The position numbers were made by a program, and so were the translations under genes. This document shows positions 3,239 through 7,300 of a stretch of 64,000 bases of DNA, piece after piece. Under the pieces are notes generated by a model that saw nothing but the letters and a program-made list of their open reading frames with translations, ran no database searches and was not told the origin of the DNA. Location: NCBI RefSeq assembly GCF_002799155.1, contig NZ_NERD01000002.1, positions 248,001 through 312,000 of the forward strand, given 5' to 3'. The stretch comes from Stenotrophomonas maltophilia (lineage in GTDB: Bacteria; Pseudomonadota; Gammaproteobacteria; Xanthomonadales; Xanthomonadaceae). Every line of letters begins with the position of its first letter. The first letter of the stretch is position 1.

Positions 3239-3871
3239 ATGATGATGGAACGCGTGATGCGATGGAGTGCACTGGCAGTGATGCTGCTTGCCGGTGGCGG
3301 GTGCTCGCCGGGATACGATGCCGGCGCCGCATGCGGGAGCCTGGCCGAGCCGGCGCCGGTCCGGGATGCCGGTGTCGAGCAGTTGCAGGCTTCGCAGGAC
3401 GACGGACGCTGCACCTTCCGCGCACAGGGGCGCGATGCGGCAGCGTTGCAGCGCCAGCAACGCATGCTGGATGCCCTCGCCATCATCGCGTGTGGCCAGC
3501 CTGCGCAGGTACAGCCGGTGGCGGGCACAGCAGGGTTCGAACTGCAGATGCCGCCGCGTTGCCCGCTCTCGGCCCGCAGCTCGCTGTTCGTCCAGGACGA
3601 CCCACGCTGGACGCTTGATCGTCCTTCGATGCCGGATTACCCGGCGGCGGCGCGTGCCGACAGGCAGGAGGGCATCGCTCACCTGCGCCTGCTGTTGGAC
3701 GACGAGGGGCGCGTCAAGGCGGCCATCGTGGCCACGTCCAGCGGCCACCCGTTGCTTGATGAAGCGGCGGGCAAGGCCGCGCTGGGATGGCGATCGAAGC
3801 GGGAGTGGTGGGCGTTCAGCACCACGCGCATGAGCCTGGTGCGGACGACGGTGGCGTTCGCCGCCAACTAG
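3239..3871 (+). CDS. Small lipoprotein or secreted protein with TonB C-terminal domain
   Basis: I place the start at the first of three consecutive ATG codons because GGAG lies 6 bases upstream, giving 210 residues. The N-terminus has a short hydrophobic stretch ending in GGGC, a weak lipobox; it could instead be a plain signal peptide. Residues 125-205 look like a TonB C-terminal fold, with the PDYPAAARADRQEG entry motif and a GRVKAAIVATSSGHPLLDEAA core. There is no proline-rich spacer and no ExbB/ExbD beside it, so it is probably not the energy transducer itself. Its stop overlaps the convergent gene's stop by 4 bases. Confidence 0.65.
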   Translation: MMMERVMRWSALAVMLLAGGGCSPGYDAGAACGSLAEPAPVRDAGVEQLQASQDDGRCTFRAQGRDAAALQRQQRMLDALAIIACGQPAQVQPVAGTAGFELQMPPRCPLSARSSLFVQDDPRWTLDRPSMPDYPAAARADRQEGIAHLRLLLDDEGRVKAAIVATSSGHPLLDEAAGKAALGWRSKREWWAFSTTRMSLVRTTVAFAAN

Positions 3872-4371
3872 CTGCCAGGCGACGACGTGAGCGCTGTCCA
3901 CTCCCACCACGGGTAGTGGTACTCGCGGTCGATGGCCTGCCAGTGCCGGCCGCACTGTACGCACGAGACCGTATGGCAGTCGCCCCAACCGCCTTCGGCT
4001 TCTTCCACCGAGCGCAGCTGCATCTGGCCCTGTTCAACCAGACGACGGGGATCAAAGAACGGGTAGCCGGGGTTGAGCGCGCACAGGCAACCCTCGCGCG
4101 CCTGCCAGTAGCGCAACCGACGCAGGGCCGCCTTCAGGTGGGCCTGGTTGCTGATCAGCATGCCGCCGAGGGCGATGCCCTGGCAGCTGCGCTCGATCAG
4201 ATCCACATGCACGGCCAACGCGTCCAACGATGCGGCATCGAACAGGCGCGCGACGGTGCGCGCGGCGTCAGTGATGCGCGTTGCGTCGCGCGAGAGCAGG
4301 TCCTGCAGCAGCACGTCGGCCTGTGCATCTTCGAGCCGGGGTATCTGCGCTGCAGGCCACGGCCAGCGCAT
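3868..4371 (-). CDS. Conserved hypothetical protein, Cys-containing
   Basis: I do not recognise this 167-residue protein. It has no signal peptide or membrane segment. The N-terminal half is mostly helical, and the end carries CHTVSCVQCGRHW (about residues 135-147), where the CxxC pair plus nearby Cys and His could bind a metal. Its start overlaps the stop of the YbaK-type gene upstream (ATGA), so the two are co-translated. Longer upstream starts are possible in frame but would run through the deacylase gene. Confidence 0.6.
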   Translation of the reverse strand: MRWPWPAAQIPRLEDAQADVLLQDLLSRDATRITDAARTVARLFDAASLDALAVHVDLIERSCQGIALGGMLISNQAHLKAALRRLRYWQAREGCLCALNPGYPFFDPRRLVEQGQMQLRSVEEAEGGWGDCHTVSCVQCGRHWQAIDREYHYPWWEWTALTSSPGS

Positions 4372-4844: not shown

Positions 4845-4903
4845 GGGCGCATCCTAGCGCGGGGCAGGGGTGTTGCCTTGACCGAGACTCGCGCATCAAC
4901 GCA

Positions 4904-4929
4904 GAACGGGCCCCCGCAGGTGCCCGTTC
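4904..4929 (-). terminator. Hairpin terminator after the effector gene
   Basis: An 8-bp stem GAACGGGC with a 10-base loop lies just beyond the stop of the XVIPCD effector gene. There is no strong T run. The 15-base stretch leading into the stem is identical, in the same orientation, to the one at the ahcY terminator on the other side of the cassette. Confidence 0.55.
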
Positions 4930-4954
4930 CGGCTGTGATCGTCGACATCCAGGA

Positions 4955-6289
4955 TCAGCGCGACATCGACTGCTGTGTCTGCATCTGTTCCTGGGTCTGC
5001 CGCTGCGACAGTTCGCTGTCCAGCGCCTGGCTCTGCCGCGTGCTGTCCTGCAGGTTGCGGTTCACCGCCTGCGACAGATCGACGTAAGTGCGGTGCATGG
5101 CGGGATCGCCCAGCTGGCCCTGCACCGCGAACACGCCCTGGTTGTCCGGCCGTGCCAGCACGAGATCGACCTGGCTCATGCCGGCCAACTTGGACTCGTA
5201 AGCCACCTGGCCTGCGGCGTTCTCGAGCTGGCTGCGGTCATTGAACAGCGGCGACAGGCCGCCCTGGCGGCGCTGTTCTTCCAGCGTCTCCAGTTTCTCC
5301 ACGACCTGCTGGTAGCGCGGGTTGTCGGCGTGGCCCGGGGTGGCCATGGTCGGTTCGGCGGCCTGCTGTTGCTGTTGCGCGATGGCCTTGTCGAGCGCAC
5401 CCAGCGTGGTGGCACCGGCCTTACCGTCGACGGTGAGCTGGTGCTCACGCTGGAACTGCTTGACCGCTTCCAGGGTGCCGGGCCCGAAATCGCTGTCGGC
5501 CACCAGCGGTTTGCCGTCCTTGCCCAGGTAGCCCAGGTCGGCCAGCTTCTGCTGCATCGCCTGTACCTCATCGCCCCTGGCGCCACTGACCAGGACGCCG
5601 TTGCCGCCGGGCGAGCCATGCGAGGGGGCATGAGTGGGGGTGATGCCCAGCTGGGTCATGGCCCGGTCGAAGCGCTCATCGCGGCTGGTGACGGCGGCCG
5701 GCGACTGGATGCCGTATTGGGTGGCATCGACGAAGGCCTGCACGTCGGCGCGGGTCGGCGGATTGCCGGCCTGCACGGTACCGCCCTGCAGCTTCTCCGC
5801 ATTGCCGGCCAGATAGTTGATGAACTGCGGGCCCATGCTGCCGAACTGGTTGTCATAGTCGGCCATGGCCAGCTGCAGTTCCGGGTTGGCCACGATGGCA
5901 TCGGCAGCGGCCGGGTTGGTCGCACGCACCTTGGCGATGGCTTCATCGACGCGCTCGATGGCGCCGTCCAGCTTGGCGTTGGTGAGCTGGTCCATCTTCG
6001 CCTGCGGAATGGCCTGCAACTTGGCATCAAGCGCGGCAAGCTGCTGGCTGCTCAGCCCTCCCTGCTGCGACAACAGCTCGATGTCAGCGGCGGTGAACCC
6101 GTTGTCGCGCAGGAAGCGCCTGGCCTGGGGGTTGCCGCCGACATCGAACTGCACCAGCCCGAACGAATAGGTGCTGGCGCCTTTCTGGGCGTATGAGAAG
6201 TGGTCCAGGTGGCGGGTGTTGCCGCCCAGTTCGGTATGCAGGAACAGCGTGGACAGCTGCTCGCGGGTGAGGGTGGAATCCGTTGCCAT
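4955..6289 (-). CDS. Probable X-T4SS antibacterial effector: lysozyme-like + peptidoglycan-binding + XVIPCD
   Basis: This 444-residue protein has three parts. Residues 8-165 look like a lysozyme-superfamily domain, with HTELGG holding a candidate catalytic Glu and YSFGLVQFDVGGN resembling the substrate loop of muramidases. Residues 233-302 are a PG_binding_1 domain (GARGDEVQAMQQKLADLGYL). Residues about 320-444 match the XVIPCD signal recognised by VirD4 of the Xanthomonadales killing T4SS, including FAVQG, DPAMHR and a Gln-rich tail. I chose the second Met because AAGGA sits 8 bases before it; the first Met (6295) is only 2 bases from it. An LprI-domain lipoprotein gene lies 50 bases upstream as likely immunity. 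The family role, degrading the wall of rival Gram-negative cells, is established; this member is inferred. Confidence 0.8.
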   Translation of the reverse strand: MATDSTLTREQLSTLFLHTELGGNTRHLDHFSYAQKGASTYSFGLVQFDVGGNPQARRFLRDNGFTAADIELLSQQGGLSSQQLAALDAKLQAIPQAKMDQLTNAKLDGAIERVDEAIAKVRATNPAAADAIVANPELQLAMADYDNQFGSMGPQFINYLAGNAEKLQGGTVQAGNPPTRADVQAFVDATQYGIQSPAAVTSRDERFDRAMTQLGITPTHAPSHGSPGGNGVLVSGARGDEVQAMQQKLADLGYLGKDGKPLVADSDFGPGTLEAVKQFQREHQLTVDGKAGATTLGALDKAIAQQQQQAAEPTMATPGHADNPRYQQVVEKLETLEEQRRQGGLSPLFNDRSQLENAAGQVAYESKLAGMSQVDLVLARPDNQGVFAVQGQLGDPAMHRTYVDLSQAVNRNLQDSTRQSQALDSELSQRQTQEQMQTQQSMSR

Positions 6290-6339
6290 GGTCATCGTCC
6301 TTCAATGAGGAAAAAGGAGCCGGGCATGCCCAGCCGATC

Positions 6340-7125
6340 TCAACCGGCGCAGTGCTGCTGGGTGAAGCCGAGCAGCTGGCGGGTGGCCTGGGCGCCATAA
6401 GCGGCCGCTGCCGGTTCGAGCGCGAACTGGCCGACCATCTGGTTGCTGCACAGCTGCACGGTGCGCTTGCCGGCGGTGGTTTCCTGGGTGCAGTGGGCGG
6501 CCAGCAGGGCGTTGGGGCCGCCGCCCATGTTGGTGGCCGCGGTGCAGCCCAGCAGGCGGCCTTCCTGGCCGTTCTCCCGCAGCAGCGTGTTGAAGTTCGC
6601 CAGCTGGCTGTTGGGGTCGCGCAGCACCAGCAGGTCCACGCACTGCTGCTGGCCGTTGGGCACTTCGCAGGCGTCCTGGTCGACCAGGCCGTCGCGCGTG
6701 GCCGACAACACTTTCAGGCGGTCGGCAAATACCTGTTGCAGGCAGTGCGCGTCACCGCACAGGTCGCGCGTGTGCTGGATCCAGCGCTGCTGCTCGGCCT
6801 GCAGCTTGTCCTTGCCGGCGGCATCAAGGGTTTCGCGTGCAGTGGCTTCGGCCTTGGCCAGCTCGCCTTCCTGCTGCAGCAGGGCGGGGTCGTTGCAGAT
6901 CAGGGTCTGCACCGGCGATGCCCCCTCGGTGCAGGCCGTGTTGCTGCCCGTGGCCGCTGCCGGGGCGTCGGCTGCCTTGTCGGCGCTGGCCTGTCCGGTG
7001 GCCGCTGCCGGAGCGGTGGCCCCACCATCGCCGGCCGGAGGGGCGCAGGCGGCCAGCAGGGCCACCCAGCACAGGGTCATCAGGGGCTTCATCGCCCGGG
7101 TCATTCGGTCACGGTTGCGCGGCAT
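6340..7125 (-). CDS. LprI-domain lipoprotein, likely immunity protein for the adjacent effector
   Basis: The start is set by AAAGGA upstream of ATG, giving 261 residues. A signal peptide ends in the lipobox LAAC with Cys27; the +2 residue is Ala, so outer-membrane sorting is expected. After an Ala-rich linker, residues about 60-150 match the lysozyme-inhibitor LprI family: paired Cys, the QxxWIxxxRDLC block and CLxxxFxxRLxxL. The remaining 110 residues, with more Cys pairs, are unassigned. A periplasmic lysozyme inhibitor encoded directly before a lysozyme-like XVIPCD toxin is the usual effector/immunity order. That it protects against this toxin is inferred. Confidence 0.75.
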   Translation of the reverse strand: MPRNRDRMTRAMKPLMTLCWVALLAACAPPAGDGGATAPAAATGQASADKAADAPAAATGSNTACTEGASPVQTLICNDPALLQQEGELAKAEATARETLDAAGKDKLQAEQQRWIQHTRDLCGDAHCLQQVFADRLKVLSATRDGLVDQDACEVPNGQQQCVDLLVLRDPNSQLANFNTLLRENGQEGRLLGCTAATNMGGGPNALLAAHCTQETTAGKRTVQLCSNQMVGQFALEPAAAAYGAQATRQLLGFTQQHCAG

Positions 7126-7258
7126 GTCCTGTCCTTTGGTGTCTGCGTCCCGGCGCATGGCCTGCCGTTGGCAGTCCATGGGGGCGTAAAGCCTAGCAAG
7201 CGGCTTCTTAGGGCTCTGTGACAGGGCGCGCGGATCTTCTGCCGGGTGCCGCAACGCA

Positions 7259-7284
7259 GAACGGGCGCCCGAAGGCGCCCGTTC
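7259..7284 (-). terminator. Terminator of ahcY
   Basis: A perfect 11-bp stem (GAACGGGCGCC and its complement) closes a 4-base loop. Read on the minus strand the loop is UUCG on a C-G closing pair, an unusually stable tetraloop. It sits downstream of ahcY. The T run is poor. Confidence 0.75.
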
Positions 7285-7300
7285 GTGCATTGCATGCCCG

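Follow-up and report, generated by a model that had tools for sequence, protein, structure and literature searches.

In Xanthomonas citri, the X-Tfe XAC2609 is a peptidoglycan hydrolase that carries an XVIPCD and is paired with a lipoprotein inhibitor, the X-Tfi XAC2610 (PMC10933484), and in Stenotrophomonas maltophilia the T4SS effector TfcB has been proposed to degrade peptidoglycan (PMC8262851, PMC11253643). The available text on X. citri places one X-Tfe gene inside the vir locus and the others at dispersed sites (PMC6536674). For S. maltophilia K279a, the accessible part of one study reports six of 11 putative effectors without VirD4 binding in a two-hybrid assay (PMC11253643); since five of these have an XVIPCD, the domain is no guarantee of detectable VirD4 binding. 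Here, we analyzed a 64,000-nt stretch of S. maltophilia DNA (the window) that holds two genes likewise predicted to encode an XVIPCD toxin acting on the wall and a lipoprotein. We consider it very likely that they form an X-T4SS effector/immunity cassette, made of an injected wall-cutting toxin and a protective LprI lipoprotein. This reading had been put forward in a first-pass annotation of the window, and the XVIPCD, the predicted fold, the gene order, the lipobox, the VirB/VirD4 genes, and the co-occurrence of the two genes all fit it.

The coordinates of the features are given in Table 1. The toxin frame has two candidate starts, and the second ATG is the likelier one because an AAGGA Shine-Dalgarno-like stretch precedes it (by eye), which gives the length of 444 residues first proposed. 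Pfam scans confirmed the PG_binding_1 domain (PGB) and the C-terminal XVIPCD of the annotation, the latter with 68.5 bits against a cut-off of 24.9 for PF20410. By sequence, the XVIPCD also matches 7mu9, the secretion domain of XAC2609 as solved by NMR (E 4.6e-21), and the C-terminal end was Gln-rich by eye, as described before. The toxin is present in a single copy in the host genome (search at E ≤ 1e-30). Among public plasmids, the toxin query matched one record, over residues 223-317 only.

Table 1. Features of the toxin/lipoprotein locus, in window coordinates.
Feature	Position	Strand	Remarks
Toxin ORF	4955-6295	-	open from first ATG at 6295, 446 aa
Putative X-Tfe toxin gene	4955..6289	-	444 aa from second ATG at 6289
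N-terminal lysozyme/GH46-like domain	5633..6289	-	about residues 1-220, 445-residue numbering
PG_binding_1 domain (PGB)	5393..5578	-	PF01471, residues 240-301, E 1.7e-17
XVIPCD, VirD4-recognition/secretion domain	5027..5341	-	PF20410, residues 319-423, E 8.2e-19
Glu21 codon (GAA)	6230..6232	-	proposed catalytic acid; invariant in compared rows, both branches
Lipoprotein ORF	6340-7290	-	full open frame, 316-aa numbering
Putative X-Tfi immunity lipoprotein gene	6340..7125	-	261 aa from ATG 7125
Signal peptide with lipobox LAAC, Cys82	7045..7125	-	316-aa numbering; by eye
LprI domain	6745..6933	-	PF07007, E 7.3e-5
Conserved C-terminal domain, Cys-rich	6343..6681	-	residues 204-316, no Pfam match
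Hairpin then T run between immunity and toxin genes	6318..6335	-	possible attenuator
Two-gene cassette	4890..7252	.	missing (to within about 10 nt) from five aligned empty sites
Direct repeat copy 1 (hairpin)	4897..4929	.	downstream of toxin
Direct repeat copy 2 (hairpin)	7252..7284	.	downstream of ahcY

The host genome (4.42 Mb, two contigs) has 12 XVIPCD matches. It encodes one VirD4 at 2.197 Mb and one VirB4 at 2.189 Mb of contig C1, and proteins of this region match the VirB6, VirB9, and VirB10 families, so that VirB/VirD4 genes are found in the same genome. The pair itself is at 0.253 Mb, a long way from this vir region at about 2.19 Mb; the earlier remark had been that it is remote from any secretion genes in the window. 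In the virB region, two DUF4189 proteins (L153, 9895-10377 and 12096-12620) are encoded near two VirB6-type proteins. The small second contig (G000:C2, 109,114 nt), possibly a plasmid, holds three XVIPCD matches at about 78.3-84.6 kb (locus L155), and a 10-kb piece of it had no near match among public plasmids.

We then considered the distribution of the two genes. Because the genomes of the genus are related, the following counts are not independent: 24 of 91 genomes match the toxin at E ≤ 1e-30, eight of them over the whole length and 16 only from about residue 204, that is, in the PGB-XVIPCD part; the lipoprotein occurs in the same eight genomes as the full-length toxin, adjacent to it in every case; and VirB4 is found at E ≤ 1e-50 in all eight carriers, with any VirB4 match in 63 of the 91. 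At loci from named genomes, a full lipoprotein homologue lies directly upstream of the toxin in eight of 10, a set that overlaps with the genus set since the D457 locus (L056) is the same place as G048. Of the more distant pairs, the intact ones are at L058-L062 and L064 of the named set; L061 has two lipoprotein copies (3304-4080 and 5183-5968) before one toxin. At L063, an intact toxin is preceded by a 104-aa lipoprotein remnant (5659-5973); this remnant adjoins a large frame of NRPS-like appearance (by eye). At L065, from a Comamonadaceae MAG, the upstream 278-aa protein matched neither the lipoprotein nor Pfam.

In an order-wide sample of 398 genomes, seven had a full-length lipoprotein homologue, and of these only the window's own genome has an intact toxin beside it. 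A toxin relative split into three frames lies beside an intact immunity homologue at L115 (2202-3675), and toxin domain pieces remain near the full-length lipoprotein homologue at L114 and L116. No toxin domain was found beside the homologue at L109, L110, and L111; at L109, a GH19 XVIPCD effector is encoded beyond two further ORFs. At L117 (genome G693), the toxin is intact and a remnant of the lipoprotein remains. The lone lipoproteins could be explained by immunity genes that persist after loss of their toxin.

The lipoprotein gene had been described as upstream of the toxin gene in the same direction, and the two ORFs are indeed separated by 44 nt. All eight genus carriers share the same surroundings: a particular deacylase gene is found no more than about 1.03 kb from the toxin, and ahcY follows on the far side of the lipoprotein. 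We examined the deacylase locus in 30 of the 73 genomes with a deacylase match: the toxin is present in four, ahcY takes its place in 25, and the remaining one is cut off by a contig edge. In the 25 pair-less loci, the gap between deacylase and ahcY is below about 330 nt in 22 and longer in three. The two 33-nt repeat copies that frame the cassette are 91% identical, and a single copy is present in each of four empty sites aligned and, by pattern search, in 21 of the 25 pair-less loci. By the same search, the toxin-side copy was found at the window's own locus and at none of three further carriers (L124, L126, and L136), which weakens framing by the repeat as a general property of the cassette. 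The spacer between the two genes (44-50 nt) folds into a GC hairpin in seven of the eight genus loci, L024 folding otherwise, and the hairpin is followed by a T run in several of them; X. arboricola L058 did not show this fold. The window's hairpin is called terminator-like, but sites of this type numbered 6 in the region against 3.5 +/- 2.0 in shuffles, which is not significant for the class. The hairpin may lower toxin expression relative to that of the immunity gene.

A search of the 398 genomes of the order with a profile of the toxin N-terminal domain gave matches in 10, and in five of these the effectors are longer, with 515-599 aa (branch 2, the window's toxin belonging to branch 1). 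PGB and XVIPCD were present in all four branch 2 effectors scanned. A branch 2 profile matched six of the 398 genomes, the same five and G752. In all six, an LprI-type gene lies directly upstream of the effector, recognized by Pfam in five (E 5.6e-15 to 2e-17 for L118, L120, L121, and L122; 3.3e-16 for L119) and, at L167, by a custom profile built from four other branch 2 proteins (E 1e-74). At L121 (2368-3458), two LprI-type immunity genes precede one toxin. A link of branch 2 to X. citri XAC0466 was a guess from length only, the L119 toxin ORF having 584 aa and the XVIPCD range of XAC0466 ending at 584 (PMC6759196), and was not retained.

On the immunity side, an SD-like sequence precedes the ATG at 7125 (by eye), the likelier start, and several relatives have 258-262 aa. 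The gene is present in a single copy in the host genome (search at E ≤ 1e-10), and of three LprI genes in that genome only the one in the cassette adjoins an XVIPCD gene, judged by positions. The LprI match exceeds its cut-off by a thin margin (23.5 bits against 22) and an LprI match at E ≤ 10 is seen in 10 of the 13 proteins of the family alignment; together with the lipobox, this supports the earlier description of an LprI-domain lipoprotein. The lipobox Cys is present in seven of the 13 family rows and absent from the six more distant ones, which by eye have apparently plain signal peptides. The annotation had also noted some 110 residues after the LprI domain that the family does not explain. 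This segment is still without a Pfam match, but now appears as a conserved Cys-rich domain of one branch: branch 1 homologues from Xanthomonas, Rhodanobacter, and Dyella keep it, whereas it is missing from the branch 2 immunity proteins in the alignment. The C-terminal domain is thus a mark of branch 1 and is dispensable for some toxins with the same catalytic domain. In the order-wide lipoprotein search, most further matches, among those listed, span the LprI part only. A 181-aa protein (L112, 3684-4229; no Pfam match) resembles the immunity family in the C-terminal domain alone (E 2.5e-10). The lipoprotein model, which predates the wider lipoprotein alignment, has a pLDDT of 47 and a low-confidence a-b-b-b-a arrangement of the C-terminal domain; its fold search gave a best E of 0.48, from which nothing was concluded.

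These data bear on which part of the lipoprotein would act on the toxin. The pair may be real and yet the C-terminal domain be the inhibitor, with LprI as a scaffold, as the second domain (MliC) of M. tuberculosis LprI is reported to suffice for lysozyme resistance (PMC7933661); the lipoprotein here likewise has two domains, four Cys of the C-terminal domain are invariant in 13 of 13 rows, and the L063 remnant retains this domain only. We regard this arrangement as rather unlikely, given that the aligned branch 2 immunity proteins have LprI and lack the domain, and that conservation in the six distant rows is higher for the LprI part (31-38% identity) than for the C-terminal domain (24-29%). 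We favor instead LprI as the core inhibitor, to which the C-terminal domain would add affinity or specificity.

The N-terminal part of the toxin had been called lysozyme-like from reading alone. In Pfam, every match of residues 1-220 fell well short of the cut-off, PF11123 being the best at E 0.015. The structure model, computed from a hand-picked alignment of 32 of 120 listed homologues (of 143), one row of which (P0116) differs from the others in its N-terminal part, upholds a lysozyme-superfamily fold. Among the rows returned, the modeled domain is nearest in fold to GH46 chitosanases (4qwp, 4olt, 7c6d, and 6lwu; rmsd 4.0-4.3), which Foldseek alone places at E 0.05-0.15 and which differ from it in sequence (10-13% identity, no profile match). 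None of 10 members of the toxin-domain alignment matched PF01374 (GH46) at E ≤ 10, nor did the host genome. With hhalign, the toxin-domain alignment against GH46+PGB proteins (L066 and 18 of its 120 listed homologues) gave a probability of 0.25%, both alignments being shallow; we therefore claim GH46 as a likeness of fold only. Of what was looked for in the follow-up, the XVIPCD profile match and T4SS genes in the genome were found and the model gave a lysozyme-type fold, while residues 1-220 had no profile match to glycosidase families in Pfam or by hhalign against GH46+PGB. L066 itself (1213-2145), from a gammaproteobacterium, fuses a GH46 domain to PG_binding_1 and belongs to a family of 2261 matches that may act on peptidoglycan and not on chitosan. 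Searching PDB sequences with a profile of the domain returned helical-repeat and coil matches (BurrH, designed coils) and was judged uninformative, and a viral fold search returned mainly PG-binding- and endolysin-looking matches and settled nothing.

Across 11 toxin-domain rows, drawn from branch 1 (six) and branch 2 (five), Glu21, Leu22, Ala35, Ser40, Phe44, Gly45, Gln48, Asp50, Asp101, Asp145, Asn148, Gln149, Gly194, and Arg204 are invariant. By hand alignment to L066, the position of what we take to be the GH46 general-base Asp is Gly38 in the toxin and Ala in the other rows. Lytic transglycosylases cut glycans with a single Glu, and a domain with one catalytic Glu and no general-base Asp would therefore probably be lytic-transglycosylase-like. 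We tentatively propose, at somewhat less than even chances, that the domain founds a new peptidoglycan glycosidase family of lysozyme-superfamily fold nearest GH46, present in X-T4SS effectors of at least two branches and with LprI proteins as its dedicated inhibitors. The Gly or Ala at the Asp position, and the lack of a sequence-level tie to active families, would also be compatible with a catalytically weak or binding-only lysozyme-like fold that needs partners for killing. This is improbable in our view: Glu21 and its neighbors are invariant in the compared rows of two diverged branches, the immunity gene is retained with the toxin, and single-Glu glycan cutters exist.

Taken together, these observations are consistent with the following course of events. 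The toxin, which is without a signal peptide, would be made in the cytoplasm, recognized by VirD4 through its XVIPCD, and injected by the VirB machine into a touching bacterium, where the PG-binding domain would hold it on the target wall and the lysozyme-fold domain would cleave the glycan strand, Glu21 serving as general acid. The lipoprotein would be exported to the producer's envelope and block toxin that reaches the producer's periplasm. That the pair is instead a housekeeping wall enzyme with its regulator, as its chromosomal place beside ahcY might suggest, is hardly credible given the XVIPCD of the toxin, the patchy presence (8 of 91), and the empty sites.

Orthology of the toxin to K279a Smlt0193 (RS00905) was not established: the D457 copy (L056) lies at 762 kb, a place that no K279a effector tag in the available text of PMC11253643 seems to fit. 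A supplementary table lists 16 putative T4SS substrates of D457 (PMC8745565, available in part), and the D457 orthologue of the toxin may already be among them. No paper with XVIPCD and LprI together was found in open-access text, an X-T4SS/LprI pair was not seen in the open-access text of the papers listed, and the sections of X-T4SS literature covered here do not describe this catalytic domain and immunity type. XAC2609 has a GH19 domain and XAC2610 is an inhibitor of beta-propeller type for which insertion of a loop is predicted, whereas the toxin described here has a GH46/lysozyme-like domain that falls in no Pfam family and is paired with an LprI-type protein; TfcB, unlike the toxin here, has a GH-19 chitinase-like fold.

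LprI proteins adjoining wall-attacking effectors are already reported for T6SS, in the accessible parts of PMC8867033 and PMC12135965. The Salmonella Dublin pair SED_RS06235/SED_RS06230 likewise joins a predicted peptidoglycan hydrolase to a periplasmic LprI protein, but it belongs to a T6SS, has a LysM domain and an LprI protein of 146 aa, and its immunity gene lies downstream (PMC8867033). WHIX effectors, which differ as T6SS effectors, likewise have LprI (DUF1311) genes beside them, as does a lysozyme-like T6SS effector of Pantoea cited in the same text (PMC12135965). M. tuberculosis LprI is likewise a lipoprotein with LprI and a second domain; that domain is MliC, whereas none of our 13 lipoprotein family members matched MliC in Pfam at E ≤ 10. 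In the available text of the Salmonella ScwA paper, the second domain is said to suffice in M. tuberculosis LprI, and evidence that PF07007 as such inhibits lysozyme is said to be lacking, so that the role of this widespread domain is unsettled (PMC7933661).

In conclusion, the lysozyme-like effector domain, absent from the Pfam copy used, and its repeated pairing with LprI are new leads within a known class. Should the toxin domain prove to be a new glycosidase, the LprI domain would gain natural targets and the added C-terminal domain would be a second inhibitor module of one branch only. Since LprI would be the sole guard in one of the two toxin branches and be joined by an extra domain in the other, the role of LprI becomes a question of binding and rescue.
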